This document shows positions 8,775-64,000 of a stretch of DNA of 64,000 nt, piece by piece; position 1 is the first letter of the stretch, and each line of letters opens with the position of its first letter. The DNA lies in the NCBI RefSeq assembly GCF_037975245.1, contig NC_092571.1:27604564-27668563 (forward strand), read 5' to 3'. The position numbers were made by a program, and so were the translations under genes. The notes beneath the pieces are model-generated. The model was not told the DNA's origin, did not search any database, and worked only from the letters and a program-made list of their open reading frames with translations. Source of the stretch: Apostichopus japonicus. Lineage: Eukaryota; Echinodermata; Holothuroidea; Aspidochirotida; Stichopodidae.

Positions 8775-10994
8775 TTAAATAATCAGCCAATATCTCTGCC
8801 GATACAGTGGCCGGACGGCGTGGCGCACTGTAATAGCTGTAGAGCGAGACTCTCTTTTACACGCGGTGGTTCGAACCCCAGTGATGACGTCTTTTGCCGA
8901 TCTCTTACAACTCTGGCTTGCATTAGGAGCCTTAACTATTAAATAATCAGCCAATATCTCTGCCGATACAGTGGCCGGACGGCGTGGCGCACTGTAATAG
9001 CTGTAGAGCGAGACTCTCTTTTGCACGCGGTGGTTCGAACCCCAGTGATGACGTCTTTTGCCGATCTTTTACAACTCTGGCTTGCATTAGGAGCCTTAAC
9101 TATTAAACAATCAGCCAATATCTCAGCCGATACAGTGGCCGGACGGCGTGGCGCACTGTAATAGCTGTAGAGCGAGACTCTCTTTTGCACGCGGTGGTTC
9201 GAACCCCAGTGATGACGTCTTTTGCCGATCTTTTACAACTCTGGCTTGCATTAGGAGCCTTAACTATTAAACAATCAGCCAATATCTCTGCCGATACAGT
9301 GGCCGGACGGCGTGGCGCACTGTAATAGCTGTAGAGCGAGACTCTCTTTTGCACGCGGTGGTTCGAACCCCAGTGATGACGTCTTTTGCCGATCTTTTAC
9401 AACTCTGGCTTGCATTAGGAGCCTTAACTATTAAACAATCAGCCAATATCTCAGCCGATACAGTGGCCGGACGGCGTGGCGCACTGTAATAGCTGTAGAG
9501 CGAGACTCTCTTTTGCACGCGGTGGTTCGAACCCCAGTGATGACGTCTTTTGCCGATCTTTTACAACTCTGGCTTGCATTAGGAGCCTTAACTATTAAAT
9601 AATCAGCCAATATCTCAGCCGATACAGTGGCCGGACGGCGTGGCGCACTGTAATAGCTGTAGAGCGAGACTCTCTTTTGCACGCGGTGGTTCGAACCCCA
9701 GTGATGACGTCTTTTGCCGATCTTTTACAACTCTGGCTTGCATTAGGAGCCTTAACTATTAAATAATCAGCCAATATCTCTGCCGATACAGTGGCCGGAC
9801 GGCGTGGCGCACTGTAATAGCTGTAGAGCGAGACTCTCTTTTGCACGCGGTGGTTCGAACCCCAGTGATGACGTCTTTTGCCGATCTCTTACAACTCTGG
9901 CTTGCATTAGGAGCCTTAACTATTAAATAATCAGCCAATATCTCTGCCGATACAGTGGCCGGACGGCGTGGCGCACTGTAATAGCTGTAGAGCGAGACTC
10001 TCTTTTGCACGCGGTGGTTCGAACCCCAGTGATGAGGTCTTTTGCCGATCTTTTACAACTCTGGCTTGCATTAGGAGCCTTAACTATTAAACAATCAGCC
10101 AATATCTCAGCCGATACAGTGGCCGGACGGCGTGGCGCACTGTAATAGCTGTAGAGCGAGACTCTCTTTTGCACGCGGTGGTTCGAACCCCAGTGATGAC
10201 GTCTTTTGCCGATCTTTTACAACTCTGGCTTGCATTAGGAGCCTTAACTATTAAACAATCAGCCAATATCTCTGCCGATACAGTGGCCGGACGGCGTGGC
10301 GCACTGTAATAGCTGTAGAGCGAGACTCTCTTTTGCACGCGGTGGTTCGAACCCCAGTGATGACGTCTTTTGCCGATCTTTTACAACTCTGGCTTGCATT
10401 AGGAGCCTTAACTATTAAACAATCAGCCAATATCTCAGCCGATACAGTGGCCGGACGGCGTGGCGCACTGTAATAGCTGTAGAGCGAGACTCTCTTTTGC
10501 ACGCGGTGGTTCGAACCCCAGTGATGACGTCTTTTGCCGATCTTTTACAACTCTGGCTTGCATTAGGAGCCTTAACTATTAAATAATCAGCCAATATCTC
10601 AGCCGATACAGTGGCCGGACGGCGTGGCGCACTGTAATAGCTGTAGAGCGAGACTCTCTTTTGCACGCGGTGGTTCGAACCCCAGTGATGACGTCTTTTG
10701 CCGATCTTTTACAACTCTGGCTTGCATTAGGAGCCTTAACTATTAAATAATCAGCCAATATCTCTGCCGATACAGTGGCCGGACGGCGTGGCGCACTGTG
10801 ATAGCTGTAGAGCGAGACTCTCTTTTGCACGCGGTGGTTCGAACCCCAGTGATGACGTCTTTTGCCGATCTTTTACAACTCTGGCTTGCATTAGGAGCCT
10901 TAACTATTGAATAATCAGCCAATATCTCTGCCGATACAGTGGCCGGACGGCGTGGCGCACTGTAATAGCTGTAGAGCGAGACTCTCTTTTGCAC
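8775..10994. repeat. Higher-order repeat: 6-mer of 984 bp
   Basis: The order of tctcA/tctcT and aaaC/aaaT variants repeats every six monomers (8775/9759, 8939/9923, 9103/10087, 9267/10251, 9431/10415, 9595/10579). The rare gatctCttac monomer near 8900 recurs near 9884, offset 984. Confidence 0.8.
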
Positions 10995-13900
10995 GCGGTG
11001 GTTCGAACCCCAGTGATGACGTCTTTTGCCGATCTTTTACAACTCTGGCTTGCATTAGGAGCCTCAACTATTAAACAATCAGCCAATATCTCAGCCGATA
11101 CAGTGGCCGGACGGCGTGGCGCACTGTAATAGCTGTAGAGCGAGACTCTCTTTTGCACGCGGTGGTTCGAACCCCAGTGATGACGTCTTTTGCCGATCTT
11201 TTACAACTCTGGCTTGCATTAGGAGCCTTAACTATTAAACAATCAGCCAATATCTCAGCCGATACAGTGGCCGGACGGCGTGGCGCACTGTAATAGCTGT
11301 AGAGCGAGACTCTCTTTTGCACGCGGTGGTTCGAACCCCAGTGATGACGTCTTTTGCCGATCTTTTACAACTCTGGCTTGCATTAGGAGCCTTAACTATT
11401 AAACAATCAGCCAATATCTCAGCCGATACAGTGGCCGGACGGCGTGGCGCACTGTAATAGCTGTAGAGCGAGACTCTCTTTTGCACGCGGTGGTTCGAAC
11501 CCCAGTGATGACGTCTTTTGCCGATCTTTTACAACTCTGGCTTGCATTAGGAGCCTTAACTATTAAACAATCAGCCAATATCTCAGCCGATACAGTGGCC
11601 GGACGGCGTGGCGCACTGTAATAGCTGTAGAGCGAGACTCTCTTTTGCACGCGGTGGTTCGAACCCCAGTGATGACGTCTTTTGCCGATCTTTTACAACT
11701 CTGGCTTGCATTAGGAGCCTTAACTATTAAACAATCAGCCAATATCTCAGCCGATACAGTGGCCGGACGGCGTGGCGCACTGTAATAGCTGTAGAGCGAG
11801 ACTCTCTTTTGCACGCGGTGGTTCGAACCCCAGTGATGACGTCTTTTGCCGATCTTTTACAACTCTGACTTGCATTAGGAGCCTTAACTATTAAACAATC
11901 AGCCAATATCTCAGCCGATACAGTGGCCGGACGGCGTGGCGCACTGTAATAGCTGTAGAGCGAGACTCTCTTTTGCACGCGGTGGTTCGAACCCCAGTGA
12001 TGACGTCTTTTGCCGATCTTTTACAACTCTGGCTTGCATTAGGAGCCTTAACTATTAAACAATCAGCCAATATCTCAGCCGATACAGTGGCCGGACGGCG
12101 TGGCGCACTGTAATAGCTGTAGAGCGAGACTCTCTTTTGCACGCGGTGGTTCGAACCCCAGTGATGACGTCTTTTGCCGATCTTTTACAACTCTGGCTTG
12201 CATTAGGAGCCTTAACTATTAAATAATCAGCCAATATCTCAGCCGATACAGTGGCCGGACGGCGTGGCGCACTGTAATAGCTGTAGAGCGAGACTCTCTT
12301 TTGCACGCGGTGGTTCGAACCCCAGTGATGACGTCTTTTGCCGATCTTTTACAACTCTGGCTTGCATTAGGAGCCTTAACTATTAAACAATCAGCCAATA
12401 TCTCAGCCGATACAGTGGCCGGACGGCGTGGCGCACTGTAATAGCTGTAGAGCGAGACTCTCTTTTGCACGCGGTGGTTCGAACCCCAGTGATGACGTCT
12501 TTTGCCGATCTTTTACAACTCTGGCTTGCATTAGGAGCCTTAACTATTAAATAATCAGCCAATATCTCAGCCGATACAGTGGCCGGACGGCGTGGCGCAC
12601 TGTAATAGCTGTAGAGCGAGACTCTCTTTTGCACGCGGTGGTTCGAACCCCAGTGATGACGTCTTTTGCCGATCTTTTACAACTCTGGCTTGCATTAGGA
12701 GCCTTAACTATTAAATAATCAGCCAATATCTCTGCCGATACAGTGGCCGGACGGCGTGGCGCACTGTGATAGCTGTAGAGCGAGACTCTCTTTTGCACGC
12801 GGTGATTCGAACCCCAGTGATGACGTCTTTTGCCGATCTTTTACAACTCTGGCTTGCATTAGGAGCCTTAACTATTGAATAATCAGCCAATATCTCTGCC
12901 GATACAGTGGCCGGACGGCGTGGCGCACTGTAATAGCTGTAGAGCGAGACTCTCTTTTGCACGCGGTGGTTCGAACCCCAGTGATGACGTCTTTTGCCGA
13001 TCTTTTACAACTCTGGCTTGCATTAGGAGCCTCAACTATTAAACAATCAGCCAATATCTCAGCCGATACAGTGGCCGGACGGCGTGGCGCACTGTAATAG
13101 CTGTAGAGCGAGACTCTCTTTTGCACGCGGTGGTTCGAACCCCAGTGATGACGTCTTTTGCCGATCTTTTACAACTCTGGCTTGCATTAGGAGCCTTAAC
13201 TATTAAACAATCAGCCAATATCTCAGCCGATACAGTGGCCGGACGGCGTGGCGCACTGTAATAGCTGTAGAGCGAGACTCTCTTTTGCACGCGGTGGTTC
13301 GAACCCCAGTGATGACGTCTTTTGCCGATCTTTTACAACTCTGGCTTGCATTAGGAGCCTTAACTATTAAACAATCAGCCAATATCTCAGCCGATACAGT
13401 GGCCGGACGGCGTGGCGCACTGTAATAGCTGTAGAGCGAGACTCTCTTTTGCACGCGGTGGTTCGAACCCCAGTGATGACGTCTTTTGCCGATCTTTTAC
13501 AACTCTGGCTTGCATTAGGAGCCTTAACTATTAAACAATCAGCCAATATCTCAGCCGATACAGTGGCCGGACGGCGTGGCGCACTGTAATAGCTGTAGAG
13601 CGAGACTCTCTTTTGCACGCGGTGGTTCGAACCCCAGTGATGACGTCTTTTGCCGATCTTTTACAACTCTGGCTTGCATTAGGAGCCTTAACTATTAAAC
13701 AATCAGCCAATATCTCAGCCGATACAGTGGCCGGACGGCGTGGCGCACTGTAATAGCTGTAGAGCGAGACTCTCTTTTGCACGCGGTGGTTCGAACCCCA
13801 GTGATGACGTCTTTTGCCGATCTTTTACAACTCTGACTTGCATTAGGAGCCTTAACTATTAAACAATCAGCCAATATCTCAGCCGATACAGTGGCCGGAC

Positions 13901-14438
13901 GGCGTGGCGCACTGTAATAGCTGTAGAGCGAGACTCTCTTTTGCACGCGGTGGTTCGAACCCCAGTGATGACGTCTTTTGCCGATCTTTTACAACTCTGG
14001 CTTGCATTAGGAGCCTTAACTATTAAACAATCAGCCAATATCTCAGCCGATACAGTGGCCGGACGGCGTGGCGCACTGTAATAGCTGTAGAGCGAGACTC
14101 TCTTTTGCACGCGGTGGTTCGAACCCCAGTGATGACGTCTTTTGCCGATCTTTTACAACTCTGGCTTGCATTAGGAGCCTTAACTATTAAATAATCAGCC
14201 AATATCTCAGCCGATACAGTGGCCGGACGGCGTGGCGCACTGTAATAGCTGTAGAGCGAGACTCTCTTTTGCACGCGGTGGTTCGAACCCCAGTGATGAC
14301 GTCTTTTGCCGATCTTTTACAACTCTGGCTTGCATTAGGAGCCTTAACTATTAAACAATCAGCCAATATCTCAGCCGATACAGTGGCCGGACGGCGTGGC
14401 GCACTGTAATAGCTGTAGAGCGAGACTCTCTTTTGCAC
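10415..14438. repeat. Higher-order repeat: 12-mer of 1968 bp, two copies
   Basis: Rare markers recur at offset 1968: cactgtGatag (near 10799 and 12767), ttgaataatc (10907 and 12875), gcctCaac (near 11063 and 13031) and actctgActtgc (near 11867 and 13835). Copies run roughly 10415-12382 and 12383-14350. This period is twice the 984-bp unit just upstream, whose second copy it overlaps. Confidence 0.85.
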
Positions 14439-15491
14439 GCGGTGGTTCGAACCCCAGTGATGACGTCTTTTGCCGATCTTTTACAACTCTGGCTTGCATT
14501 AGGAGCCTTAACTATTAAACAATCAGCCAATATCTCAGCCGATACAGTGGCCGGACGGCGTGGCGCACTGTAATAGCTGTAGAGCGAGACTCTCTTTTGC
14601 ACGCGGTGGTTCGAACCCCAGTGATGACGTCTTTTGCCGATCTTTTACAACTCTGGCTTGCATTAGGAGCCTTAACTATTAAATAATCAGCCAATATCTC
14701 AGCCGATACAGTGGCCGGACGGCGTGGCGCACTGTAATAGCTGTAGAGCGAGACTCTCTTTTGCACGCGGTGGTTCGAACCCCAGTGATGACGTCTTTTG
14801 CCGATCTTTTACAACTCTGGCTTGCATTAGGAGCCTTAACTATTAAACAATCAGCCAATATCTCAGCCGATACAGTGGCCGGACGGCGTGGCGCACTGTA
14901 ATAGCTGTAGAGCGAGACTCTCTTTTGCACGCGGTGGTTCGAACCCCAGTGATGACGTCTTTTGCCGATCTTTTACAACTCTGGCTTGCATTAGGAGCCT
15001 TAACTATTAAATAATCAGCCAATATCTCTGCCGATACAGTGGCCGGACGGCGTGGCGCACTGTAATAGCTGTAGAGCGAGACTCTCTTTTGCACGCGGTG
15101 GTTCGAACCCCAGTGATGACGTCTTTTGCCGATCTTTTACAACTCTGGCTTGCATTAGGAGCCTTAACTATTGAATAATCAGCCAATATCTCTGCCGATA
15201 CAGTGGCCGGACGGCGTGGCGCACTGTAATAGCTGTAGAGCGAGACTCTCTTTTGCACGCGGTGGTTCGAACCCCAGTGATGACGTCTTTTGCCGATCTT
15301 TTACAACTCTGACTTGCATTAGGAGCCTTAACTATTAAATAATCAGCCAATATCTCAGCCGATACAGTGGCCGGACGGCGTGGCGCACTGTAATAGCTGT
15401 AGAGCGAGACTCTCTTTTGCACGCGGTGGTTCGAACCCCAGTGATGACGTCTTTTGCCGATCTTTTACAACTCTGGCTTGCATTAGGAGCC

Positions 15492-15495
15492 TTAA
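15492..15495. other. TTAA target-site duplication, left
   Basis: The monomer reads ...gccTTAA here and then leaves the satellite. The same TTAA reappears at 23405-23408 followed by ctatt, which restores the usual gccTTAActatt. Because TTAA is a palindrome, a TA duplication with a one-base-longer inverted repeat fits equally well. Confidence 0.85.
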
Positions 15496-15513
15496 AGGTC
15501 AAGTGACACGTAA
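15496..15513 (+). repeat. Left terminal inverted repeat
   Basis: 18 bp starting AGGTCAAG; pairs with 23387-23404 with one mismatch (T here where the right end implies C). Homology stops abruptly after position 18. Confidence 0.85.
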
Positions 15514-15642
15514 CAGATTTCTTTCAAACTTACACAAATTGAAAAGCTACATATCAAAACCCTATATTCCAAATTTGGAGTTCCACAATTGTTTCTTTGC
15601 TGTTTTAATTAAGTTAATCACCAAGCTAATTCCGTAAGATAA

Positions 15643-15650
15643 TGACGTCA
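15643..15650. promoter_or_regulatory. CRE palindrome TGACGTCA near left end
   Basis: Full cAMP-response-element core followed by cggggg, about 150 bp inside the left end and upstream of the plus-strand THAP exon. A mirror copy (inverted, with the G/C run on the matching side) lies at 21517-21524. Binding by CREB/ATF proteins is inference from the core motif. Confidence 0.45.
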
Positions 15651-15862
15651 CGGGGGAACCGCCAATGTTACCAAAGCTAGATATGCCTAATATGCTAACC
15701 GAGATCAAAGCCGTAAACAATACGTCACGGACAGTAAACAAAATATCAGATGAGAATGGGTGCACAACAGTACAAGAAAGTTTCGTGTTCGTCAAACACT
15801 GTATACAGCGATAGCTTAGTACCAGTGCACTCAGCCAGCCTACAGTAGCTGCCTAAGTACAG

Positions 15863-15997
15863 ATTGGCTTGGACCTTCGAGCGAATCGCCGTCTACAAGA
15901 CAATGCCGTTCCTTCTCTATTTGGAGAAAGTATCTTCAAATCTCCAGGAGATAAAGAAACAAGTAGACCAGTAGTTGCGAAGCTGGATCGGAAAAGA
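15863..15997 (+). pseudogene. Fossil exon with THAP-domain C-terminal motif
   Basis: An open 45-codon stretch lies between an AG (15861-15862, weak pyrimidine tract) and a consensus donor GTAAGT at 15998. It reads LDLRANRRLQDNAVPSLF and continues with a charged segment ending LDRKR. The AVPSLF box is the conserved end of THAP domains (C2CH zinc-binding DNA-binding domains, whose last residues read AVPxxF). The first half of the domain, with the Cys and His ligands, is not recognisable upstream between 15514 and 15860, so the gene is truncated or too decayed. It probably belonged to the transposase of the element. Family assignment rests on one motif. Confidence 0.45.
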
Positions 15998-17286
15998 GTA
16001 AGTGTATTTTCTGGCCTAGGCCTACTACAACAAGGACTAACTTGGTATTATTACTAACTTACAGTAGGCTAATTCTTATAATTTCGTTCAGTTAGTTAGG
16101 CCCTAAATTAGGTACGGCGACGATAAAGTTAGGTGTAGGCTAGGGCTATATTAACTTTTATCTGTGGTACATCATGAAAAATCCAGAATAACAAGCATAA
16201 GATGTTTACATGTCATTTTGCCCAATATTATAATGTGCTCCCACCTATCTATATACTCAGAGTCATAGCTCATATGTTTCACAGTAAATGACATCCTTAT
16301 ATTTTGCCATTTTTGTTGGTAGGGCTGCAATTTTTGTTACAAGAGAAAACGCTTGTGACAGGTACTTTCAAACATATCAAACTGCTTTCTTAAATGAACT
16401 TTCATAACTTCCTTCTTATTTTCTTTCCCAATTTTCAATACTTAGATTAATCTAGAAGCTGTTCCCCAACCAACTGCAGTGAAAATAAAGGCAGGATTCT
16501 GCAGAATGTACATCTCCATCTAAAGGTAGCATGATCTTATAGACATGTGCTTGATATTACCGAAAAACAGTTAGGAAATGGGGGAGGGGAGGGTGGTGAC
16601 AGGCATTAAAGATTTAAGTAGTCAGTTTTGAACGGGATAAAAGGAATCTCCACCAGTAAAACATCGAGGCATGTATATGGGGGGCAAGCTACCAGACAAA
16701 AAGGAGGCAGCAGTATTACGGCCGAAAGGTCCCCATCAATAGGTTTTAATAGAGTGATGAATGGGGAGGGGGGGGGGGGGGAGAAAATGTGGTACAGAAG
16801 TGTAAGCTAGGGTAATACAAGGAAGAATGGAAAACTTTCATACATCTATAGAGTATTCTATAGCAGAAGTGAGTACAGGGGCCAAAATTTTAGAAACAGT
16901 ACTCGTTGAAAGCAAAATAGCAATTAAAACTGCACATTGGGCAGGCTGACTAGGGGATAATATACATTGTATTTTATCCATCATATCCGCCTGCCTGACG
17001 AGAGTGGTTGAGGAGGCTATACCTGATGGCTTCACAGGAAAATATAAAGGCTACATCTATAGTTACTGAGAGAAGGGAGATTACATTGTAGTTATACTAT
17101 ATGAAACCAAGCTGAAGTCATCTGCAATGCTCATGGTGTGAGTGGCCCATATTTTTGCAGCCACATAAAGCAGGAGGATATGCTCTCCTTCAGAAAAGAT
17201 AAGTGAACCATCTAGGCAGCTGACCCCTGTCCAAGAGCAGCCTACTGTATGTGTGTGGTATAATAAGCGTTTATTCTAATTTTCAG

Positions 17287-17528
17287 TGAATGTAACACAT
17301 GTATGTAGAAGTCCAGTGTTCACTGGTCCCCCTACCACCATTGAAGTTGCTGACTGGACCAACAGAGACAAGAACACCATCAAAGCAACCAGGGCCATCT
17401 CACAGTGGCGATGATGGTCCGTCTGCTGCTGTGGCATCCACATCGGGATACACCGAAAAACCGCCAGGTAGTCCGGACTACACTCCATCAGTTAACTCAT
17501 CTGAACATGACAAAGATGACGCTTCAAG
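17287..17528 (+). pseudogene. Probable fossil exon, Ser/Pro-rich linker
   Basis: A good acceptor (pyrimidine-rich, ending ttttcag at 17286) and a donor (caag/gtaatt at 17529) bound this stretch. The frame from 17299 to 17528 is open and reads a low-complexity linker with TRTPSKQPGPSHSGDDGPS and later SPDYTPS, ending KDDASR. Stops occur in the first few codons before 17299, so the exon cannot be joined in frame to the THAP exon as it stands. Such Ser/Pro linkers commonly follow the DNA-binding domain in transposases; this is a guess from position and composition. Confidence 0.35.
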
Positions 17529-18232
17529 GTAATTTTCAAGATTGATAGTAGACTAGTCTGGAAAATTAATTGGTGCCATAACTTTCTGGAAAGAGGATCA
17601 TTATTAATTTTGACACCAACACTGTGGGGTAGTCTGGAATGTGTGGTGAGGCCATCAGTCTTTACTTCAATTAGCATATACATACTGTATCTGGTAGAGT
17701 TGTCACAGCTGTATGTGAACAAGAAATAAAGGCACAAACAAGTAGTTGGATTTAACAGAGTATATTATATCTTAACTTGGCTGGATATCTGCTACTGAAT
17801 ACAAATGGTGAAAGTAGCATCTTATACACTCTTTTACCATGGATTACAAGGGGATGGGACAGGATGTTACTCTGTCCACATGTTTACTTTACTACATATC
17901 AGTGGTTAAGCTACTGAGACAATGACCACACATCCTGCTGAAGATTACATAATCCATAATATTAGGTGCACAAACAGGTGAAGGATTTTTGTTGTAATCA
18001 GTAAAAAATATATTGGAATTGTTCAGGCACAAGTTGTCAGGTTAAACCTGACCCATGTATCCACACCAATTGAGGTGTACTCAGCTGTCGCCTTAGTTGG
18101 GCATCCAAAGACTTGACTGACAACTGTGCCATGCCTATTGACCGAAATGGAGTGATTGGAATGCCTCTATCTAAATGGTATGTTTTATGAACTATTATTA
18201 TATTATTCTTCATATCTTTACTATTCTACAGA

Positions 18233-18369
18233 TTATGTATGGGAACTTCTTGACTGCTTGCAACAACTTCTGCAGAAGTGGAACTCTGGGAGAGGAGTGT
18301 CCTGTTCCTGTCAGAAAAGAGCCCCCACCACTTGCAAGCTCCTATATTCATCCGAACAGGATGCCATAA
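18233..18369 (+). pseudogene. Possible fossil exon, cysteine-containing
   Basis: It starts after a consensus acceptor (tattctacag) and is open to a TAA at 18367. It reads a segment with TACNNFCRSGTLGEECPVPV and ends SSYIHPNRMP. The preceding stretch (about 18009-18174) ends in a donor GTATGT and also has a long open run with ASKDLTDNCAMPIDRNGVIG, interrupted by one stop. I do not recognise a family. Both lie on the strand of the THAP exon and may be later exons of the same decayed transposase gene. Confidence 0.25.
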
Positions 18370-19285
18370 AAAAACACAGAAGCAGATTTCAAAAGCTTTG
18401 CTGAAGTACTGTAGTTGATGGCCTCCCAATCTCTAATTTTGTTTCATTGTAGTGGGGAGCAATCGACTCTGTGAATCGTCTGTTCACATGATGTTTTGGC
18501 ACAGCTGCAGAGCAGTGTTAATTAACAGGTCGCTACCAGCCTTTAGGGAAGTTGCTAAAAGTTTACATTAAAGTTTTACTTACATCTGGTTTCCATTCTA
18601 ACTAACTAAATGATAACATTATATTTTAAAAAAAAGTTCCAATGACAAGTACTCCTCTCTAGAGAGCTTAGACTTCATAAATATAAATTTCATGCTGACT
18701 TACTATTTGTATGCAACTTTGGTGTTTCAAACATATTGCCAATTTTTTGTTTTTCTCAAAAAGAATTGACAGAAATTTGCTGTTTGTTCCCCGCATGGGA
18801 TAAAATATGATTTTTTTTATCCCATTTATGATCAAGTAACCTTGATATTCCATGGATTAATGAACAATTTCAGATTGATTCTCATTACACTTTTATTAAA
18901 ATGAAAGCCTAAGCTCTCCAGATCCCATTGACATAGTGGTTTAGGGTACTTTATTCAAACTATTCTTCTATTTTAACCTAGTATATTTGAGGTTTCAATC
19001 ATCCACATTTTGTTGGCAGGCTACTAGAAGTGACAGCTTTGCTTACAAGAGAGAATACATACAAAAAATTAACTTGAGTTTTTATTATTTATTGCTGTTA
19101 TGTACTTCCCAAACTTGAAAATGTAAAATTTCATCCAAGATTGTAGTTAATACCATGAACCAGAAAAATGTAAGCTGGAATTCCAAAATGTTCACCATTC
19201 AGCCACAAAACAGACAGGACTGAACCCTGTTTCTATCAAACTTTGCAGAAATGATACTATGACTTGGCATAAACAGTCCACATTC

Positions 19286-21098
19286 TCACAGTCTTGATAA
19301 TTTAAATCCTTCATGCTGTTCAGATGGTAAAGCTTCTCTAATTCTCCTTACTGCATAGGATGGGAGAACAACACAATATCCTTCCCTAAAAATTGCTAGC
19401 TCATCCGTGCAAGTTGTCTGTATGCTCTGTGTCTGTATTTCCTGTAAAATAATCATATGAAAACCAGCTATAAAAGATGAAGACACACAAAAGCTTGGTA
19501 GCCATCTGGGGACGTCAATTTTAAAATAAATTTCTATATGATTTCCAGAATTTGCTTGGCCCCTAAATCTGCCTCCCCTAAAGTAAGCCTAGCTATGCCA
19601 TTTATACAAACTGATCATTGTCATCATCTCGGGGACTAAAATTTGTAAATGGATCGTGCACAAGCATGGTGGACATTTTTTTTGTGGCATTTGGTTCCAT
19701 GGCTCAGTGTTAATGATTACTATGTCAGTCAGCATGATAAGGGTTAACCTCAAGGGCATTACACCAGTTTTTGGTCAAAATGACCTAATCAGAAGCAGGT
19801 TTTGAACATGGTGCACAAATTTTCTTGATCAAATCTATATCTTAATGTTATTCCTTTCACAACGAAACAAAACTAAACTATGAATACACCCTCTGTATTG
19901 TTACATCTTTCAACAGCAGGTCAGAGCAATGAATAAAGGTATACAACAAAAATAATGTATTCTATACTTACTCTTGGATCCTGTTTTCCTGTGCACGTCC
20001 ACCATACTGTTGACGGTACATGTAGTAGGCTGTCTGAAGAAACAATGGGTTCAGGCACATAGCTTCAAAACCTGGGTGTAAGGTGATGCATGCAGCACCT
20101 TCTTCATCCATCACAGTCCTTATCTATTTCGCTGCAGCATCTACACTCCCTTGCTGTAGGCATCACAGCACATTGGCCACAATGACACCTGTAAACAATA
20201 CAAACCAGTTCAAATAATAAAGAGCCAATTCAATGACTTCATACCAACCTCAATTATTGGGGCATACTGTACTAACATGTCAAAATAGAAAAGGGGCACC
20301 TCTGAAGGGCAATCTACTGTTGAAGCTCCTTACAAGTAACATCACTAGTAAGGAAGGGGTAGCCTCTTCTTAGAAGTCTTGCCTCTGTTGGGACAATGCT
20401 GCAAAGGAAAATAAAACAGGCCGATATTGCCTCGTTTCCAACTCTTTCCCACTTCTGAATCCATTCCCTAGATTGAGAAAATCTGGTTATGAAATTAGCT
20501 CAAGCGGAAATGACAAAAAGCTGGTGTGAGGTGCCACCTTCTCCCTCCCCCCCCCCACCCTTTCCCTGATTTGTGGTAACTTCACTAATTTGCCACTAGG
20601 CCTACAACTGCTAGGAAATTAATAATAGGCCACCTCTGAATTTGTTGTGTACTCTTCCAATTGGCTCCTTCAATCTACTAACCAAATGAAACATGTCTGT
20701 GTGACATGTTCCTGGGGCATGTGCTGCCACAACTTTTAAGGAAAATAGTAACTTCCTTAACTTTACTCGACCGCACATTCATGTTAATTTTGCTGCCCCA
20801 TCAACAAATTGGCTAGCTAAGTGTATGAGCAAAGTTAGGAAACATTTATCGGTTCTAGGCCTAACTAGTGACACAACTATCCTATATAAAGTATAGTAAG
20901 CTTGGCGTAACGTTACCGTTATATTCCGTCAAGACGATCAATTTCGACATTGCTGTCCGATCCCGCTTCCTCTTCGCTGGTCTCCGGTTCGAACATATAG
21001 GGAAAAACTTCCCCACGATCGTCCACCATGTCCTCCATTTCCCTTACTTCTTCGCCGTTGTTATCTAAATACTGTGTGTCAATGCCACCGGCAGCCAT
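19286..21098 (-). pseudogene. Broken P2X7-ballast (P2RX7_C-like) domain gene, three exons
   Basis: Exon 1 (21098-20917) starts MAAGGID and contains an acidic stretch with FPYMFEPETSEEE. Exon 2 (20188-19972) begins CHCGQCAVMPTARECRCC and, after a one-base shift, reads ACITLHPGFEAMCLNPLFLQ then TAYYMYRQQYG. Exon 3 (19441-19286) starts KYRHRAYRQLAR and, after a shift, reads YCVVLPSYAVRRIREALPSE. These match the Cys/Zn cytoplasmic ballast domain of P2X7 (CxC, MPT, CC, CITxHPxF, CLNP, AYRQ, VLPSCVVxxIRxxFP blocks). Introns have GT-AG ends (acceptors tttacag/ttttacag, donors gtaacg and gtaagt) and the phases join in frame. Damage: an in-frame TAA at the end of exon 1, one frameshift in exon 2 and a stop/shift in exon 3. 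There are no P2X channel segments nearby, so this is the stand-alone domain found in many invertebrates. Confidence 0.8.
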
Positions 21099-21215
21099 TT
21101 CGCGATATGTATAAGCTATGCTGTGCTGTGTATATATGCGTACTACAGTGCGTGTATAGAAACTGTATGTGGTAGCAATATCGTATGCGACGATATCATT
21201 CACTTTCGACTTGGT

Positions 21216-21237
21216 AAACAAATGACGTCATTTGTTT
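21216..21237. promoter_or_regulatory. 22-bp perfect palindrome with CRE core
   Basis: The sequence is symmetrical around TGACGTCA (21223-21230), extended on each side to 22 bp. It lies about 120 bp upstream of the ATG of the minus-strand P2X7-ballast gene, a typical distance for a promoter element. Use as a promoter is inference. Confidence 0.45.
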
Positions 21238-21516
21238 TCGGCTTTCCCTGAACGAGTCAATCTAGCCGATTTTTGCGGAGTTTTTTGTTCCTTGATAGGA
21301 AGAAAATGCAAGGAATTTATGAAAAAAGAAGTCAATGGATGTTTTGTTCGATGTCTTATGTATCAATTTGTGATTTTTCATCTTAATCCAAATCATAACT
21401 TTCTTGTAACAGACTGCTGAAAAAGATAATATTTTCGAGAAGTTAGAGATTTCTCCATACCCAATGCACTGCGCAGAACATATACAGTTTGCACTCTTCT
21501 GCGCTCCCCCCCCCCG

Positions 21517-21524
21517 TGACGTCA
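21517..21524. promoter_or_regulatory. CRE palindrome near right end
   Basis: TGACGTCA preceded by a C run. It mirrors the arrangement at 15643-15650, where the CRE is followed by a G run. Removing the LINE insertions, it lies roughly 150-180 bp from the right end, about as far in as its partner on the left. Confidence 0.4.
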
Positions 21525-21905
21525 CTGAATCTATTACGTAATAGTACTTTTTACCGATTTCTATCCCTTTGGAGACGGAAAAAAATCGCGGTGCTGGGTT
21601 TTTGTTAATGTAAGAATTGTTAGGTTTAATATTATGCTTAATATTAACAAAGGTTTAATATTAACAAATATGACATTCTATGCAACCAACAATATGGCTT
21701 TCGACCACATCATTCTACTGAACTTGCACTGGCAGATGCCGTTGACAAATTGTACAGCAGTCTTGATAATAATAGATCTTGCTTGGGTGTGTTCCTAGAT
21801 CTTTCCAAAGCGTTCGACACTATTGATCATACCATTCTACTTAGTAAATTACAACATTATGGCATCAGAGGAACGACGCTGAACTGGATCGATAGTTATA
21901 TATCT

Positions 21906-22200
21906 CCAAACTGTAATTATTTCTCACTATTAATGGATTTATTCTTGTGTGTGTTAGCGATTAAGATCATTATAAAGATTGTTAGGATCGCTTATTAACA
22001 TTATTAATTTCTAGTAGAGTCAATTCGATTATTTCATCATTGTAGATGCTACTATTAACTTTTCATTTCTATTCTTAAGTTTTTCTTTCTTTTTTCTTTT
22101 TGGGGAGTCTCCTACTTTGTTAAGCCTTACAGGCTTTATAGGAGACTTCCCGTCACACTGTAAATTGTGATGAAACAAATAAATATACAAATATATACAA
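21906..22200 (+). mobile_element. Nested LINE 3' fragment (295 bp) with 8-bp target duplication
   Basis: The copy is severely 5'-truncated: only the last codons and 3' UTR remain. Its sequence matches, in the opposite orientation, the 3' end of the LINE at 38521-39317 (ggagtctcctac hairpin, cacactgtaaattgtgatgaaac, ATACAAAT-type tail). Target duplication atatatct occurs at 21898-21905 and 22201-22208, though the second copy blends into the AT-rich tail. Removing the insert restores the reading frame of the host LINE. Confidence 0.85.
22104..22150 (+). ncRNA. LINE 3'-UTR stem-loop (family A)
   Basis: TCTCCTA (22108-22114) pairs with TAGGAGA (22139-22145), extended below by GGAG/CTTCC with a bulge. 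The related LINE at 23272-23310 has TCTTCTA/TAGAAGA in the same place, a compensatory C-G to T-A change. In CR1/L2-type LINEs a 3' stem-loop is bound by the reverse transcriptase; that role here is inferred. Confidence 0.65.
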
Positions 22201-22208
22201 ATATATCT

Positions 22209-23189
22209 AATCGGCATCAATATATCTCTTACAAAAACACTCATTCTCATCTTGCAGAAATTCAATGTGGTGTTCCACAAGGCTCAATTCTAGGCCCTTT
22301 ACTGTTTATTATATATGTCAATGACATCTGCCACGTATCAGAAATCGCAAACATTACGTTATTTGCCGACGACACAAATATTTTTTTCGAATCAAATGAA
22401 AATGAAAATTTATTTCATATTAAAGTGTCTTCTGAATTAAATAAATTTAACGACTGGTTTGCCTCTAACAAGCTATCGCTTAACATTGGCAAAACGAATT
22501 ATATCGTTTTTAATACATCCCGAAATTTTAGCTGGGATAAAGATATTTTTATGGGAGGTAAAATTCTCAAAGAGGTATTTTCTAATAAATTCTTAGGTGT
22601 ACATATTGATCATAAACTTTCATGGGGTGATCATATTTCCATAGTATGCAGGAAAGTTGCAAAGAATATAGGAATATTATCGAAATTGAAACACTACCTG
22701 CCACAACACATATTAAAGACCCTATATCAAACTTTAGTGGTCCCACATTTTTCTTATTGCTCGATAATTTGGTCTGGTACACGTGATACTAATCTTAAGC
22801 CACTTATTATATTACAAAAGAAAGCTGTCCGCCACATATCACATGCTGCACCACGTGATCACACCAACCTTCTATTCAAGGATCTGAATATATTGAAAAT
22901 TAATGACATAATACGTGTAAATCTTGCCACCTTCACTTATAAGGCTTGGAATGGACTCCTACCTAATGCATTTCATAATTATTTAATCCGTAATTCGGAT
23001 ATACATCACCACAACACAAGACATGCAAATCATGCGCATTATCACAACACGAATACCTCAACAGGAATGTTAAGCCTCAGAAATCGAGCAATAAAAACCT
23101 GGAATTCTACTACTGACATTATTAAAAATAAATTATCGTGTAGGACATTTAGAAAATGTTATATTAAAGAAATAATTGCATCATATTAA
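22209..23189 (+). pseudogene. LINE reverse transcriptase, 3' half of ORF
   Basis: The open frame contains the RT palm with QCGVPQGS and FADD motifs, then LNKFNDWFASNKLSLNIGKT, the QKKAVRHISHAAPRDH block and a C-terminal tail ending in SCRTFRKCY. It catalyses first-strand synthesis on the LINE RNA in intact elements. It is in the same frame as 21750-21905: the nested insert plus one 8-bp duplication adds 303 bp (101 codons), so before that hit the frame was continuous. The original start is missing, so the copy is dead. Confidence 0.85.
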
Positions 23190-23386
23190 TTAAAATATCA
23201 TATAATTGATTTATTGTCGAAACGTTTAATTTGATCTTTAATTTTTTCTTCTCTTTTCTTTCTTCAGGGAGTCTTCTACATTGTTAAGCTATTGTATGCT
23301 TTATAGAAGACTTCCTTTCACCTTGTATATTTGCACGTGAAAAAACAAAATAAATCAAATCAAATCAAATCAAATCAAAGTCAAGT

Positions 23387-23404
23387 TTACGTGTCGCTTG
23401 ACCT
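23387..23404 (-). repeat. Right terminal inverted repeat
   Basis: 18 bp ending ...CTTGACCT, complementary to 15496-15513 with one mismatch. It is followed directly by TTAA (23405-23408) and the rest of the satellite monomer. Confidence 0.85.
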
Positions 23405-26400
23405 TTAACTATTAAATAATCAGACAATATCTCAGCCGATACAGTGGCCGGACGGCGTGGCGCACTGTAATAGCTGTAGAGCGAGATTCTCTTTTGCACG
23501 CGGTGGTTCGAACCCCAGTGATGACGTCTTTTGCCGATCTTTTACAACTCTGGCTTGCATTAGGAGCCTCAACTATTAAACAATCAGCCAATATCTCAGC
23601 CGATACAGTGACCGGACGGCGTGGCGCACTGTAATAGCTGTAGAGCGAGACTCTCTTTTGCACGCGGTGGTTCGAACCCCAGTGATGACGTCTTTTGCCG
23701 ATCTTTTACAACTCTGGCTTGCATTAGGAGCCTCAACTATTAAACAATCAGCCAATATCTCAGCCGATGCAGTGGCCGGACGGCGTGGCGCACTGTAATA
23801 GCTGTAGAGCGAGACTCTCTTTTGCACGCGGTGGTTCGAACCCCAGTGATGACGTCTTTTGCCGATCTTTTACAACTCTGGCTTGCATTAGGAGCCTCAA
23901 CTATTAAATAATCAGCCAATATCTCAGCCGATGCAGTGGCCGGACGGCGTGGCGCACTGTAATAGCTGTAGAGTGAGACTCTCTTTTGCACGCGGTGGTT
24001 CGAACCCCAGTGATGACGTCTTTTGCCGATCTTTTACAACTCTGGCTTGCATTAGGAGCCTCAACTATTAAATAATCAGCCAATATCTCAGCCGATGCAG
24101 TGGCCGGACGGCGTGGCGCACTGTAATAGATGTAGAGCGAGACTCTCTTTTGCACGCGGTGGTTCGAACCCCAGTGATGACGTCTTTTGCCGATCTTTTA
24201 CAACTCTGGCTTGCATTAGGAGCCTCAACTATTAAATAATCAGCCAATATCTCAGCCGATGCAGTGGCCGGACGGCGTGGCGCACTGTAATAGCTGTAGA
24301 GCGAGACTCTCTTTTGCACGCGGTGGTTCGAACCCCAGTGATGACGTCTTTTGCCGATCTTTTACAACTCTGGCTTGCATTAGGAGCCTCAACTATTAAA
24401 TAATCAGCCAATATCTCAGCCGATGCAGTGGCCGGACGGCGTGGCGCACTGTAATAGCTGTAGAGCGAGACTCTCTTTTGCACGCGGTGGTTCGAACCCC
24501 AGTGATGACGTCTTTTGCCGATCTTTTACAACTCTGGCTTGCATTAGGAGCCTCAACTATTAAATAATCAGCCAATATCTCAGCCGATGCAGTGGCCGGA
24601 CGGCGTGGCGCACTGTAATAGCTGTAGAGCGAGACTCTCTTTTGCACGCGGTGGTTCGAACCCCAGTGATGACGTCTTTTGCCGATCTTTTACAACTCTG
24701 GCTTGCATTAGGAGCCTCAACTATTAAATAATCAGCCAATATCTCAGCCGATGCAGTGGCCGGACGGCGTGGCGCACTGTAATAGCTGTAGAGCGAGACT
24801 CTCTTTTGCACGCGGTGGTTCGAACCCCAGTGATGACGTCTTTTGCCGATCTTTTACAACTCTGGCTTGCATTAGGAGCCTCAACTATTAAATAATCAGC
24901 CAATATCTCAGCCGATGCAGCGGCCGGACGGCGTGGCGCACTGTAATAGCTGTAGAGCGAGACTCTCTTTTGCACGCGGTGGTTCGAACCCCAGTGATGA
25001 CGTCTTTTGCCGATCTTTTACAACTCTGGCTTGCATTAGGAGCCTCAACTATTAAATAATCAGCCAATATCTCAGCCGATGCAGCGGCCGGACGGCGTGG
25101 CGCACTGTAATAGCTGTAGAGCGAGACTCTCTTTTGCACGCGGTGGTTCGAACCCCAGTGATGACGTCTTTTGCCGATCTTTTACAACTCTGGCTTGCAT
25201 TAGGAGCCTCAACTATTAAATAATCAGCCAATATCTCTGCCGATACAGTGGCCGGACGGCGTGGCGCACTGTAATAGCTGTAGAGCGAGACTCTCTTTTG
25301 CACGCGGTGGTTCGAACCCCAGTGATGACGTCTTTTGCCGATCTTTTACAACTCTGGCTTGCATTAGGAGCCTCAACTATTAAATAATCAGCCAATATCT
25401 CAGCCGATGCAGTGGCCGGACGGCGTGGCGCACTGTAATAGCTGTAGAGCGAGACTCTCTTTTGCACGCGGTGGTTCGAACCCCAGTGATGACGTCTTTT
25501 GCCGATCTTTTACAACTCTGGCTTGCATTAGGAGCCTCAACTATTAAATAATCAGCCAATATCTCAGCCGATGCAGTGGCCGGACGGCGTGGCGCACTGT
25601 AATAGCTGTAGAGCGAGACTCTCTTTTGCACGCGGTGGTTCGAACCCCAGTGATGACGTCTTTTGCCGATCTTTTACAACTCTGGCTTGCATTAGGAGCC
25701 TCAACTATTAAATAATCAGCCAATATCTCTGCCGATGCAGTGGCCGGACGGCGTGGCGCACTGTAATAGCTGTAGAGCGAGACTCTCTTTTGCACGCGGT
25801 GGTTCGAACCCCAGTGATGACGTCTTTTGCCGATCTTTTACAACTCTGGCTTGCATTAGGAGCCTCAACTATTAAATAATCAGCCAATATCTCAGCCGAT
25901 GCAGTGGCCGGACGGCGTGGCGCACTGTAATAGCTGTAGAGCGAGACTCTCTTTTGCACGCGGTGGTTCGAACCCCAGTGATGACGTCTTTTGCCGATCT
26001 TTTACAACTCTGGCTTGCATTAGGAGCCTCAACTATTAAATAATCAGCCAATATCTCAGCCGATGCAGTGGCCGGACGGCGTGGCGCACTGTAATAGCTG
26101 TAGAGCGAGACTCTCTTTTGCACGCGGTGGTTCGAACCCCAGTGATGACGTCTTTTGCCGATCTTTTACAACTCTGGCTTGCATTAGGAGCCTCAACTAT
26201 TAAATAATCAGCCAATATCTCAGCCGATGCAGTGGCCGGACGGCGTGGCGCACTGTAATAGCTGTAGAGCGAGACTCTCTTTTGCACGCGGTGGTTCGAA
26301 CCCCAGTGATGACGTCTTTTGCCGATCTTTTACAACTCTGGCTTGCATTAGGAGCCTCAACTATTAAATAATCAGCCAATATCTCAGCCGATGCAGTGGC

Positions 26401-29400
26401 CGGACGGCGTGGCGCACTGTAATAGCTGTAGAGCGAGACTCTCTTTTGCACGCGGTGGTTCGAACCCCAGTGATGACGTCTTTTGCCGATCTTTTACAAC
26501 TCTGGCTTGCATTAGGAGCCTCAACTATTAAATAATCAGCCAATATCTCAGCCGATGCAGTGGCCGGACGGCGTGGCGCACTGTAATAGATGTAGAGCGA
26601 GACTCTCTTTTGCACGCGGTGGTTCGAACCCCAGTGATGACGTCTTTTGCCGATCTTTTACAACTCTGGCTTGCATTAGGAGCCTCAACTATTAAATAAT
26701 CAGCCAATATCTCAGCCGATGCAGCGGCCGGACGGCGTGGCGCACTGTAATAGCTGTAGAGCGAGACTCTCTTTTGCACGCGGTGGTTCGAACCCCAGTG
26801 ATGACGTCTTTTGCCGATCTTTTACAACTCTGGCTTGCATTAGGAGCCTCAACTATTAAATAATCAGCCAATATCTCAGCCGATGCAGCGGCCGGACGGC
26901 GTGGCGCACTGTAATAGCTGTAGAGCGAGACTCTCTTTTGCACGCGGTGGTTCAAACCCCAGTGATGACGTCTTTTGCCGATCTTTTACAACTCTGGCTT
27001 GCATTAGGAGCCTCAACTATTAAATAATCAGCCAATATCTCAGCCGATGCAGTGGCCGGACGGCGTGGCGCACTGTAATAGCTGTAGAGCGAGACTCTCT
27101 TTTGCACGCGGTGGTTCGAACCCCAGTGATGACGTCTTTTGCCGATCTTTTACAACTCTGGCTTGCATTAGGAGCCTCAACTATTAAATAATCAGCCAAT
27201 ATCTCAGCCGATGCAGTGGCCGGACGGCGTGGCGCACTGTAATAGCTGTAGAGCGAGACTCTCTTTTGCACGCGGTGGTTCGAACCCCAGTGATGACGTC
27301 TTTTGCCGATCTTTTACAACTCTGGCTTGCATTAGGAGCCTCAACTATTAAATAATCAGCCAATATCTCTGCCGATGCAGTGGCCGGACGGCGTGGCGCA
27401 CTGTAATAGCTGTAGAGCGAGACTCTCTTTTGCACGCGGTGGTTCGAACCCCAGTGATGACGTCTTTTGCCGATCTTTTACAACTCTGGCTTGCATTAGG
27501 AGCCTCAACTATTAAATAATCAGCCAATATCTCAGCCGATGCAGTGGCCGGACGGCGTGGCGCACTGTAATAGCTGTAGAGCGAGACTCTCTTTTGCACG
27601 CGGTGGTTCGAACCCCAGTGATGACGTCTTTTGCCGATCTTTTACAACTCTGGCTTGCATTAGGAGCCTCAACTATTAAATAATCAGCCAATATCTCAGC
27701 CGATGCAGTGGCCGGACGGCGTGGCGCACTGTAATAGCTGTAGAGCGAGACTCTCTTTTGCACGCGGTGGTTCGAACCCCAGTGATGACGTCTTTTGCCG
27801 ATCTTTTACAACTCTGGCTTGCATTAGGAGCCTCAACTATTAAATAATCAGCCAATATCTCAGCCGATGCAGTGGCCGGACGGCGTGGCGCACTGTAATA
27901 GCTGTAGAGCGAGACTCTCTTTTGCACGCGGTGGTTCGAACCCCAGTGATGACGTCTTTTGCCGATCTTTTACAACTCTGGCTTGCATTAGGAGCCTCAA
28001 CTATTAAATAATCAGCCAATATCTCAGCCGATGCAGTGGCCGGACGGCGTGGCGCACTGTAATAGCTGTAGAGCGAGACTCTCTTTTGCACGCGGTGGTT
28101 CGAACCCCAGTGATGACGTCTTTTGCCGATCTTTTACAACTCTGGCTTGCATTAGGAGCCTCAACTATTAAATAATCAGCCAATATCTCAGCCGATGCAG
28201 TGGCCGGACGGCGTGGCGCACTGTAATAGCTGTAGAGCGAGACTCTCTTTTGCACGCGGTGGTTCGAACCCCAGTGATGACGTCTTTTGCCGATCTTTTA
28301 CAACTCTGGCTTGCATTAGGAGCCTCAACTATTAAATAATCAGCCAATATCTCAGCCGATACAGTGGCCGGACGGCGTGGCGCACTGTAATAGCTGTAGA
28401 GCGAGACTCTCTTTTGCACGCGGTGGTTCGAACCCCAGTGATGACGTCTTTTGCCGATCTTTTACAACTCTGGCTTGCATTGGGAGCCTCAACTATTAAA
28501 TAATCAGCCAATATCTCAGCCGATGCAGTGGCCGGACGGCGTGGCGCACTGTAATAGCTGTAGAGCGAGACTCTCTTTTGCACGCGGTGGTTCGAACCCC
28601 AGTGATGACGTCTTTTGCCGATCTTTTACAACTCTGGCTTGCATTGGGAGCCTCAACTATTAAATAATCAGCCAATATCTCAGCCGATACAGTGGCCGGA
28701 CGGTGTGGCGCACTGTAATAGCTGTAGAGCGAGACTCTCTTTTGCACGCGGTGGTTCGAACCCCAGTGATGACGTCTTTTGCCGATCTTTTACAACTCTG
28801 GCTTGCATTAGGAGCCTCAACTATTAAATAATCAGCCAATATCTCAGCCGATGCAGTGGCCGGACGGCGTGGCGCACTGTAATAGCTGTAGAGCGAGACT
28901 CTCTTTTGCACGCGGTGGTTCGAACCCCAGTGATGACGTCTTTTGCCGATCTTTTACAACTCTGGCTTGCATTAGGAGCCTCAACTATTAAATAATCAGC
29001 CAATATCTCAGCCGATGCAGTGGCCGGACGGCGTGGCGCACTGTAATAGCTGTAGAGCGAGACTCTCTTTTGCACGCGGTGGTTCGAACCCCAGTGATGA
29101 CGTCTTTTGCCGATCTTTTACAACTCTGGCTTGCATTAGGAGCCTCAACTATTAAATAATCAGCCAATATCTCAGCCGATGCAGTGGCCGGACGGCGTGG
29201 CGCACTGTAATAGCTGTAGAGCGAGACTCTCTTTTGCACGCGGTGGTTCGAACCCCAGTGATGACGTCTTTTGCCGATCTTTTACAACTCTGGCTTGCAT
29301 TAGGAGCCTCAACTATTAAATAATCAGCCAATATCTCAGCCGATACAGTGGCCGGACGGCGTGGCGCACTGTAATAGCTGTAGAGCGAGACTCTCTTTTG

Positions 29401-32400
29401 CACGCGGTGGTTCGAACCCCAGTGATGACGTCTTTTGCCGATCTTTTACAACTCTGGCTTGCATTGGGAGCCTCAACTATTAAATAATCAGCCAATATCT
29501 CAGCCGATGCAGTGGCCGGACGGCGTGGCGCACTGTAATAGCTGTAGGGCGAGACTCTCTTTTGCACGCGGTGGTTCGAACCCCAGTGATGACGTCTTTT
29601 GACGATCTTTTACAACTCTGGCTTGCATTAGGAGCCTCAACTATTAAATAATCAGCCAATATCTCAGCCGATGCAGTGGCCGGACGGCGTGGCGCACTGT
29701 AATAGCTGTAGAGCGAGACTCTCTTTTGCACGCGGTGGTTCGAACCCCAGTGATGACGTCTTTTGACGATCTTTTACAACTCTGGCTTGCATTAGGAGCC
29801 TTAACTATTAAATAATCAGCCAATATCTCAGCCGATCCAGTGGCCGGACGGCGTGGCGCACTGTAATAGCTGTAGAGCGAGACTCTCTTTTGCACGCGGT
29901 GGTTCGAACCCCAGTGATGACGTCTTTTGACGATCTTTTACAACTCTGGCTTGCATTAGGAGCCTCAACTATTAAATAATCAGCCAATATCTCAGCCGAC
30001 GCAGTGGCCGGACGGCGTGGCGCACTGTAATAGCTGTAGAGCGAGACTCTCTTTTGCACGCGGTGGTTCGAACCCCAGTGATGACGTCTTTTGCCGATCT
30101 TTTACAACTCTGGCTTGCATTAGGAGCCTCAACTATTAAATAATCAGCCAATATCACAGCCGATGCAGTGGCCGGACGGCGTGGCGTACTGTAATAGCTG
30201 TAGAGCGAGACTCTCTTTTGCACGCGGTGGTTCGAACCCCAGTGATGACGTCTTTTGCCGATCTTTTACAACTCTGGCTTGCATTGGGAGCCTCAACTAT
30301 TAAATAATCAGCCAATATCTCAGCCGATGCAGTGGCCGGACGGCGTGGCGCAGTGTAATAGCTGTAGAGCGAGACTCTCTTTTGCACGCGGTGGTTCGAA
30401 CCCCAGTGATGACGTCTTTTGCCGATCTTTTACAACTCTGGCTTGCATTAGGAGCCTCAACTATTAAATAATCAGCCAATATCTCAGCCGATGCAGTGGC
30501 CGGACGGCGTGGCGCACTGTAATAGCTGTAGAACGAGACTCTCTTTTGCACGCGGTGGTTCGAACCCCAGTGATGACGTCTTTTGCCGATCTTTTACAAC
30601 TCTGGCTTGCATTAGGAGCCTCAACTATTAAATAATCAGCCAATATCTCAGCCGATGCAGTGGCCGGACGGCGTGGCGCACTGTAATAGCTGTAGAGCGA
30701 GACTCTCTTTTGCACGCGGTGGTTCGAACCCCAGTGATGACGTCTTATGCCGATCTTTTACAACTCTGGCTTGCATTAGGAGCCTCAACTATTAAATAAT
30801 CAGCCAATATCTCAGCCGATGCAGTGGCCGGACGGCGTGGCGCACTGTAATAGCTGTAGAGCGAGACTCTCTTTTGCACGCGGTGGTTCGAACCCCAGTG
30901 ATGACGTCTTTTGCCGATCTTTTACAACTCTGGCTTGCATTGGGAGCCTTAACTATTAAATAATCAGCCAATATCTCAGCCGATACAGTGGCCGGACGGC
31001 GTGGCGCACTGTAATAGCTGTAGAGCGAGACTCTCTTTTGCACGCGGTGGTTCGAACCCCAGTGATGACGTCTTTTGCCGATCTCTTATAACTCTGGCTT
31101 GCATTGGGAGCCTTAACTATTAAATAATCAGCCAATATCTCAGCCGATACAGTGGCCAGACGGCGTGGCGCACTGTAATAGCTGTAGAGCGAGACTCTCT
31201 TTTGCACGCGGTGGTTCGAACCCCAGTGATGACGTCTTTTGCCGATCCTTTACAACTCTGGCTTGCATTAGGAGCCTCAACTATTAAATAATCAGCCAAT
31301 ATCTCAGCCGATGCAGTGGCCGGACGGCGTGGCGCACTGTAATAGCTGTAGAGCGAGACTCTCTTTTGCACGCGGTGGTTCGAACCCCAGTGATGACGTC
31401 TTTTGCCGATCTTTTACAACTCTGGCTTGCATTAGGAGCCTCAACTATTAAATAATCAGCCAATATCTCAGCCGATGCAGTGGCCGGACGGCGTGGCGCA
31501 CTGTAATAGCTGTAGAGCGAGACTCTCTTTTGCACGCGGTGGTTCGAACCCCAGTGATGACGTCTTTTGCCGATCTTTTACAACTCTGGCTTGCATTAGG
31601 AGCCTCAACTATTAAATAATCAGCCAATATCTCAGCCGATGCAGTGGCCGGACGGCGTGGCGCACTGTAATAGCTGTAGAGCGAGACTCTCTTTTGCACG
31701 CGGTGGTTCGAACCCCAGTGATGACGTCTTTTGCCGATCTTTTACAACTCTGGCTTGCATTAGGAGCCTCAACTATTAAATAATCAGCCAATATCTCAGC
31801 CGATGCAGCGGCCGGACGGCGTGGCGCACTGTAATAGCTGTAGAGCGAGACTCTCTTTTGCACGCGGTGGTTCGAACCCCAGTGATGACGTCTTTTGCCG
31901 ATCTTTTACAACTCTGGCTTGCATTAGGAGCCTCAACTATTAAATAATCAGCCAATATCTCAGCCGATGCAGCGGCCGGACGGCGTGGCGCACTGTAATA
32001 GCTGTAGAGCGAGACTCTCTTTTGCACGCGGTGGTTCGAACCCCAGTGATGACGTCTTTTGCCGATCTTTTACAACTCTGGCTTGCATTAGGAGCCTCAA
32101 CTATTAAATAATCAGCCAATATCTCAGCCGATGCAGCGGCCGGACGGCGTGGCGCACTGTAATAGCTGTAGAGCGAGACTCTCTTTTGCACGCGGTGGTT
32201 CGAACCCCAGTGATGACGTCTTTTGCCGATCTTTTACAACTCTGGCTTGCATTAGGAGCCTCAACTATTAAATAATCAGCCAATATCTCTGCCGATACAG
32301 TGGCCGGACGGCGTGGCGCACTGTAATAGCTGTAGAGCGAGACTCTCTTTTGCACGCGGTGGTTCGAACCCCAGTGATGACGTCTTTTGCCGATCTTTTA

Positions 32401-63958: not shown

Positions 63959-64000
63959 ATTGCACGTCATTTACATATCAGTTTTTCAGCCTTATAATTA

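Follow-up and report, generated by a model that had tools for sequence, protein, structure and literature searches.

The feature found in the window, by which we mean the whole 64,000-nucleotide stretch of Apostichopus japonicus DNA analyzed here (C11:27604564-27668563), is, with a probability that we put at about 0.92, a KolX gene that is broken and lies within a Kolobok DNA transposon of non-autonomous, Kol0-like type. According to Kojima and Bao (2022, PMC9587614), KolX is the second protein of Kol0 Kolobok transposons and has the ballast fold known from P2X7. A preliminary description had read the same DNA as a stand-alone P2X7 ballast-domain gene, with conserved introns, carried by a transposon. 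The ballast domain and the transposon withstood closer analysis, and further copies were found; the working gene and the conserved introns did not hold. The profile searches described below covered 671.6 Mb of this genome in 35 contigs.

The element and its insertion site

The element occupies positions 15496 to 23404 (7,909 bp, or about 6,171 bp without a nested LINE), and its composition differs from that of the satellite DNA on both sides. Its inverted ends consist of TTAA followed by AGGTCAAG(T/C)GACACGTAA, at 15492-15513 and 23387-23408, and are alike at 17 of 18 bp. The left terminal inverted repeat is AGGTCAAGTGACACGTAA (15496-15513, plus strand) and the right one AGGTCAAGCGACACGTAA (23387-23404, minus strand). 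The element termini read AG...CT at both ends, and the end pattern matches the window twice, compared with a mean of 0.00 in 100 shuffles. The three exons discussed below lie between these ends, as had been proposed. TTAA target-site duplications at 15492-15495 and 23405-23408 are apparent from the sequence and from the empty site: joining the flanks at a single TTAA gives GCATTAGGAGCC-TTAA-CTATTAAATAATCAG, an exact 31-mer that occurs 18 times in the surrounding 164-bp satellite, where a TCAA variant is found at another 70 places. Because the uninterrupted target is present in the surrounding satellite, we conclude that the element inserted into the satellite and duplicated TTAA in doing so.

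The right arm of the element is itself interrupted by a non-LTR retrotransposon on the plus strand with a TCAAA tail (about 21638 to 23375; RVT_1 at 50.3 and 46.4 bits). This nested LINE is missing from an otherwise matching full copy, L043 on contig C19, which aligns piecewise with the window element at 95-98% identity. Comparison with L043 also shows that the copies are of more than one type, distinguished by element positions 1216-1268 and by some 85 bp around position 392 (16711-16763 and 15883 of the window).

The satellite extends from 279 to 15495 (about 93 units) and from 23407 to 37439 (about 86 units), and its units are 99% alike. They contain GGTTCGAACCCC, which we take to resemble the B box of tRNA genes, and the satellite may be derived from a SINE; neither ARAGORN nor Rfam returned anything for it. 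Indeed, the window as a whole has no Rfam match at gathering thresholds and no tRNA gene. Two further features of the window were noted. On the minus strand, 41319-43788 carries two long frames, the larger of which reaches 26.2 bits against Transposase_21 (tnp2; cut-off 28.6); this is perhaps the remains of another DNA transposon. The same stretch also occurs twice, at 55506-55853 and 63638-63970, each time with AGGTCAAG after TTTA rather than TTAA, and these occurrences are probably not element ends.

The KolX pseudogene and its copies

The gene lies on the minus strand in three exons, all with GT/AG borders. Exon 1 (20917-21098) begins with an ATG at 21098 and contains an in-frame TAA at 20921-20919; it falls outside every profile match and is assigned to KolX by its position and splice phase only. 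Exon 2 (19972-20188) encodes the portion of the ballast domain with CHCGQC, CRCC and CIT, and has a frame break near 20115. Exon 3 (19286-19441) runs from YRHRAYRQ to PSYAVRRIR and GFK, and is damaged by a TAG at 19398-19396, by a frameshift near 19379 and by replacement of the PSC cysteine with tyrosine. The order of motifs across exons 2 and 3 (CHCGQC, CRCC, ACIT, YRHRAYRQ, VVLPSYAVRRIREALPSEQHEGFK) is that of the P2X7 ballast domain. When the pieces of these two exons were joined with X across the frame changes, joins that were made by hand with the expected domain already in mind, the product scored 39.6 bits against Pfam PF20478 (P2RX7_C; cut-off 23.5). Against a profile of six open KolX frames from elsewhere in the genome, the same product scored 55.9 bits, and the highest-scoring shuffle reached 9.0 (1000 run, 961 reported), which rules out chance similarity to the ballast domain. 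The profile check that had been suggested for the exons was thus passed by the joined pieces. Taken separately, the pieces scored 12.4, 12.2, 8.3 and 4.0 bits against the KolX profile, and Pfam gave zero matches for the four unjoined pieces; an alternative join that included exon 1 obtained 17.5 bits from Pfam, under the 23.5 cut-off. The joined pieces also align with P2X7 in the PDB, collinearly and weakly (E 0.015). As judged from its sequence, the three-exon gene belongs to the P2X7 ballast-domain family, as first described.

The gene is nevertheless dead: it has stops and frameshifts, and one cysteine of the domain is lost. The set of zinc cysteines is incomplete, since tyrosine stands in place of the PSC cysteine in all 12 copies of the window's family that were compared, the position (PSC or PAC) being invariant across the six open KolX frames. 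The stand-alone working gene of the preliminary description is therefore a pseudogene with TAA, TAG and frameshifts. Nor are its introns conserved with P2X7. There the ballast domain is a single exon, exon 13, according to Rump et al. (2020, PMC7016195), and each of the best 16 of 150 ballast-domain matches in the present genome can be read without a stop through most of the domain in a single frame.

Used as a DNA query, the gene matched 40 places, the window's among them (42 matches; 40 of 122 candidates scored). Identity is 94-100%, and in 32 of the 40 the match spans almost all of the 1,841 bases. Other copies of the transposon thus do carry the same domain, which the preliminary description had left to be checked. 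An element end lies nearby in at least 37 of these places (on both sides in 17, on one side in 20, on neither in 3), counts that are lower bounds resting on 100 of 182 ends listed. Genome-wide, the end sequence with its TTAA occurs 182 times at two or fewer mismatches, compared with 0 for a reversed-pattern control. Among the 100 ends listed there are 24 correctly oriented pairs no more than 15.5 kb apart, 11 of which span 6.05-6.21 kb, the size of the window element without its LINE. The genome thus has dozens of copies of an element with TTAA duplications and AG...CT ends. Visual comparison showed no overlap between the 40 gene places and the 150 domain matches listed from the whole-genome profile search, as would be expected if the domains in these places are broken.

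Lesions were compared among the window copy and its 11 closest relatives out of the 40 places. Present in 12 of 12 copies are the TAA of exon 1, a stop right behind the frame break of exon 2, and the TAG of exon 3; the exon 3 frameshift is present in 4 of 12. Since three lesions are common to all 12, the copies examined multiplied after the gene was broken, with the proviso that these 12 may share lesions simply as the window's closest relatives. The splice borders checked are intact in all 12 copies, which might speak for a working free-standing cysteine-rich protein, like fish Nanor, riding on the transposon. That would be extremely improbable for a gene whose stops, frame breaks and PSC-to-tyrosine change recur in 12 of the 12 copies compared and whose exons vary at least as much as its introns: copies differ pairwise by a mean of 1.34% in exons and 0.93% in introns, with no signal of selection (the figures use 13 rows for the 12 copies, since L043 and L010 are the same place, counted twice).

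KolX genes and transposases across the genome

The P2RX7_C profile search of the whole genome returned at least 150 ballast-domain matches (150 of 471 candidates scored). The open frames that hold the best 16 are 161-213 codons long. When a profile built from six open KolX frames was run against the PDB, it retrieved P2X7 at E 3.8e-32. In L029, L030 and L031, on three contigs, the KolX gene points towards an open transposase frame 550 codons long, and the layout of L024, L027, L028 and L021 resembles theirs. The L029 transposase matches the Mutator-like Pfam family PF20700 at 33.2 bits. All four distinct open transposase frames compared have DVWH, a DxxH motif, between TD(A/G)H and LESF; the assignment of catalytic residues in these frames is a prediction from their sequences. 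In PMC9587614, a C/DxxH motif between the second D and the last E is described for Kolobok and four other superfamilies.

A genome-wide set of 93 transposase matches (79 of 319 candidates scored) was then compared with the domain matches. Among the best 50 of 150 domain matches, 32 lie no more than 8 kb from a transposase match, tail-to-tail with it in every case; only 0.15% of the genome lies within 8 kb of a transposase match. Direct tblastn on 20 fetched regions of 9.9 kb found a transposase match in 14, again all tail-to-tail. These include transposase remains at L022 and L033 that the 50-match proximity count had overlooked; L023, L034, L035, L036, L037 and L040 showed no transposase match inside their 9.9-kb regions by tblastn. 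Elsewhere in the genome, open KolX genes are therefore arranged tail-to-tail with an open transposase of DDD/E-like type.

Ends of the form TTAA plus AG occur in three other KolX families, namely AGGTGGGATCGCTC, AGGGGCGTGGTCGTC and AGACGCGCTCGCG (one end each); a second inverted end of the open KolX elements was not found within the stretches fetched. The end of one open-KolX family has 182 genomic matches at two or fewer mismatches, compared with 1 for its control. For the 7 of 61 KolX pairs with a synonymous distance between 0.02 and 1.5, dN/dS is 0.03-0.27 in four pairs (L024/L025/L026 and L028/L039) and 0.59-0.70 in three (L022/L023/L033). Some open KolX copies are thus under purifying selection, which is not uniform across copies. 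Because of this selection, we suggest that KolX in working elements would serve as a zinc-binding accessory protein; purifying selection on some transposase-adjacent open copies suggests that the domain serves the transposon.

Two sets of matches deserve separate mention. Of the 150 domain matches listed, the final 61 cover profile positions from about 138/143 to 192, with one TGA each and 29-32.5 bits; they seem to form a further high-copy family whose KolX exon is broken. L035 (C19:11523823-11524269) is an open, divergent ballast frame of 213 codons, 24% identical to the L029 KolX. A transposase match is absent from the 9.9 kb fetched around it and from the matches listed for its contig, and L035 is a candidate host gene, comparable to the syntenic ZCD genes that Rump et al. 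describe.

A host ballast-domain gene might have been captured once by a transposon, or a transposon might have landed beside one, so that the association in the window would be a one-off. Some free-standing ballast genes may indeed exist, L035 being an example, and 18 of the best 50 domain matches lack a transposase match within 8 kb (two of them show one by direct tblastn). A single event of this kind is very unlikely, however, for a gene that is found at 40 places, with an element end nearby in 37, and whose relatives stand tail-to-tail with a transposase in 32 of the best 50 domain matches. These counts favor KolX as a resident gene of the transposon, open in other elements and, by sequence, a pseudogene in the window element.

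The window's own family yielded no transposase. With four transposases as queries, tblastn returned nothing below E 0.68 in the window element and L043, and zero matches at E 0.01 in 15 family loci; a four-transposase profile reported no match in 15496-21700 or in L043. None of the 93 transposase matches lies within 15 kb inward of the 100 ends listed. A DDD/E transposase with a C/DxxH motif was accordingly not found in the window element, L043 or the 15 family loci. A look-alike of the transposase C-terminus at element positions 2833-2901 was rejected, its E values of 1.8-5.7 being no better than chance. On the plus strand, 17296-17529 is an open frame followed by GT, with no match in Pfam or to the four-transposase profile; as a weak guess, it is possibly the leftover of a transposase gene. 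Because no transposase was found, we call the window element non-autonomous and Kol0-like rather than a full member of Kolobok, and its filing under Kolobok rests on the ends, the target site, KolX and the layout.

No autonomous partner came to light, but one could exist among the less typical copies. A search with the left half of the element (39 of 254 candidates scored) found a copy on C12 with an insertion of about 2.3 kb near position 1610; this unread insertion leaves possible room for such a partner, and the seven end pairs longer than 8 kb could contain a transposase. Pairs of window-family ends with the variant end GTAG, 5.64-7.26 kb apart, were also seen on C5 (G000:C5:16490867-16496510, 16614827-16620468 and 17619686-17626945), and represent a possible sister family or autonomous partner.

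TTAA is also duplicated by piggyBac transposons, and, in PMC9587614, a few piggyBac families are described as having a KolX-like protein, so the window element might be of piggyBac type, the more so as its family has no transposase to decide the class. This assignment is highly doubtful: the AG...CT ends are the 5'-RR ends given for Kolobok in the same source, and the KolX-like proteins of piggyBac are there said to lack most of the seven cysteines, whereas the window pieces keep the N-terminal ones. The window's family probably lost its transposase, and a related element's transposase would have mobilized the family's copies through the common ends, cutting at TTAA and pasting at a new TTAA.

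Relation to P2X7, Nanor/ZCD proteins and Kol0 Kolobok transposons

PMC9587614 concludes that P2X7 originated when a P2X4-like gene fused with KolX, and mobile KolX genes would be the likely origin of the ballast domain acquired by an ancestral P2X gene. The suggestion, made in the preliminary description, that carriage by a transposon offers a route of capture was therefore right in outline and already in print. The link between ballast domain and Kolobok was published in 2022; what is new here is a further family and counts from one genome. Beyond PMC9587614, no literature on KolX was among the matches listed, in a search outside which most subscription journals lie. The main additions are the strictness with which KolX and transposase lie tail-to-tail, and a family whose copies multiplied when KolX was already broken. 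More generally, these independent whole-genome counts back the published claim that the P2X7 ballast domain belongs to a family of transposon genes, and the purifying selection on some open KolX genes bears on the role that this domain, with its zinc and guanine-nucleotide sites, had before it joined the channel of an immune receptor. A more speculative extension, which we consider improbable, is that non-autonomous elements with ballast exons and preserved splice signals act as travelling exon cassettes, and that such cassettes, not whole autonomous elements, were spliced onto P2X.

The window gene shares with P2X7 the pattern CxC..C, CC, C(I/V)T, PSC, RIR..P and GF. Among viral contigs, 35 stretches fit the search pattern, and zero were confirmed as relatives of KolX. 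In P2X7, however, the domain is one exon fused to a channel, whereas the window gene has no channel part, as the preliminary description had observed. P2X channel exons in this genome gave five matches (nine candidates), all at C15:15.10-15.19 Mb; none of the 150 domain matches listed lies near them, and the window itself is on C11. A fusion of channel and ballast domain, the architecture of P2X7, was thus not seen in this genome.

Nanor and the stand-alone ZCD proteins of animals are likewise short and have the domain without a channel. According to PMC7016195, a species has one or a few such genes (fewer than ten), which are not reported as transposon genes. The present genome differs: it has at least 150 domain matches, and a transposase adjoins 32 of the best 50.

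The closest likeness is to Kol0 Kolobok transposons. The window element has their TTAA target-site duplication, seen in the flanking TTAA and the 18 exact empty sites; it has 5'-RR and YY-3' ends (AG...CT at both ends), which are not piggyBac-like; and it carries, as a pseudogene recognized by its motifs and profile scores, the gene for a KolX protein predicted to have the ballast fold. Its family differs from Kol0 in having no detectable transposase, a dead KolX and an intron inside the domain. Elsewhere in this genome, KolX often adjoins a DDD/E-like transposase, as in Kol0, and the findings, the missing transposase of the window's family excepted, fit the account of KolX given by Kojima and Bao.
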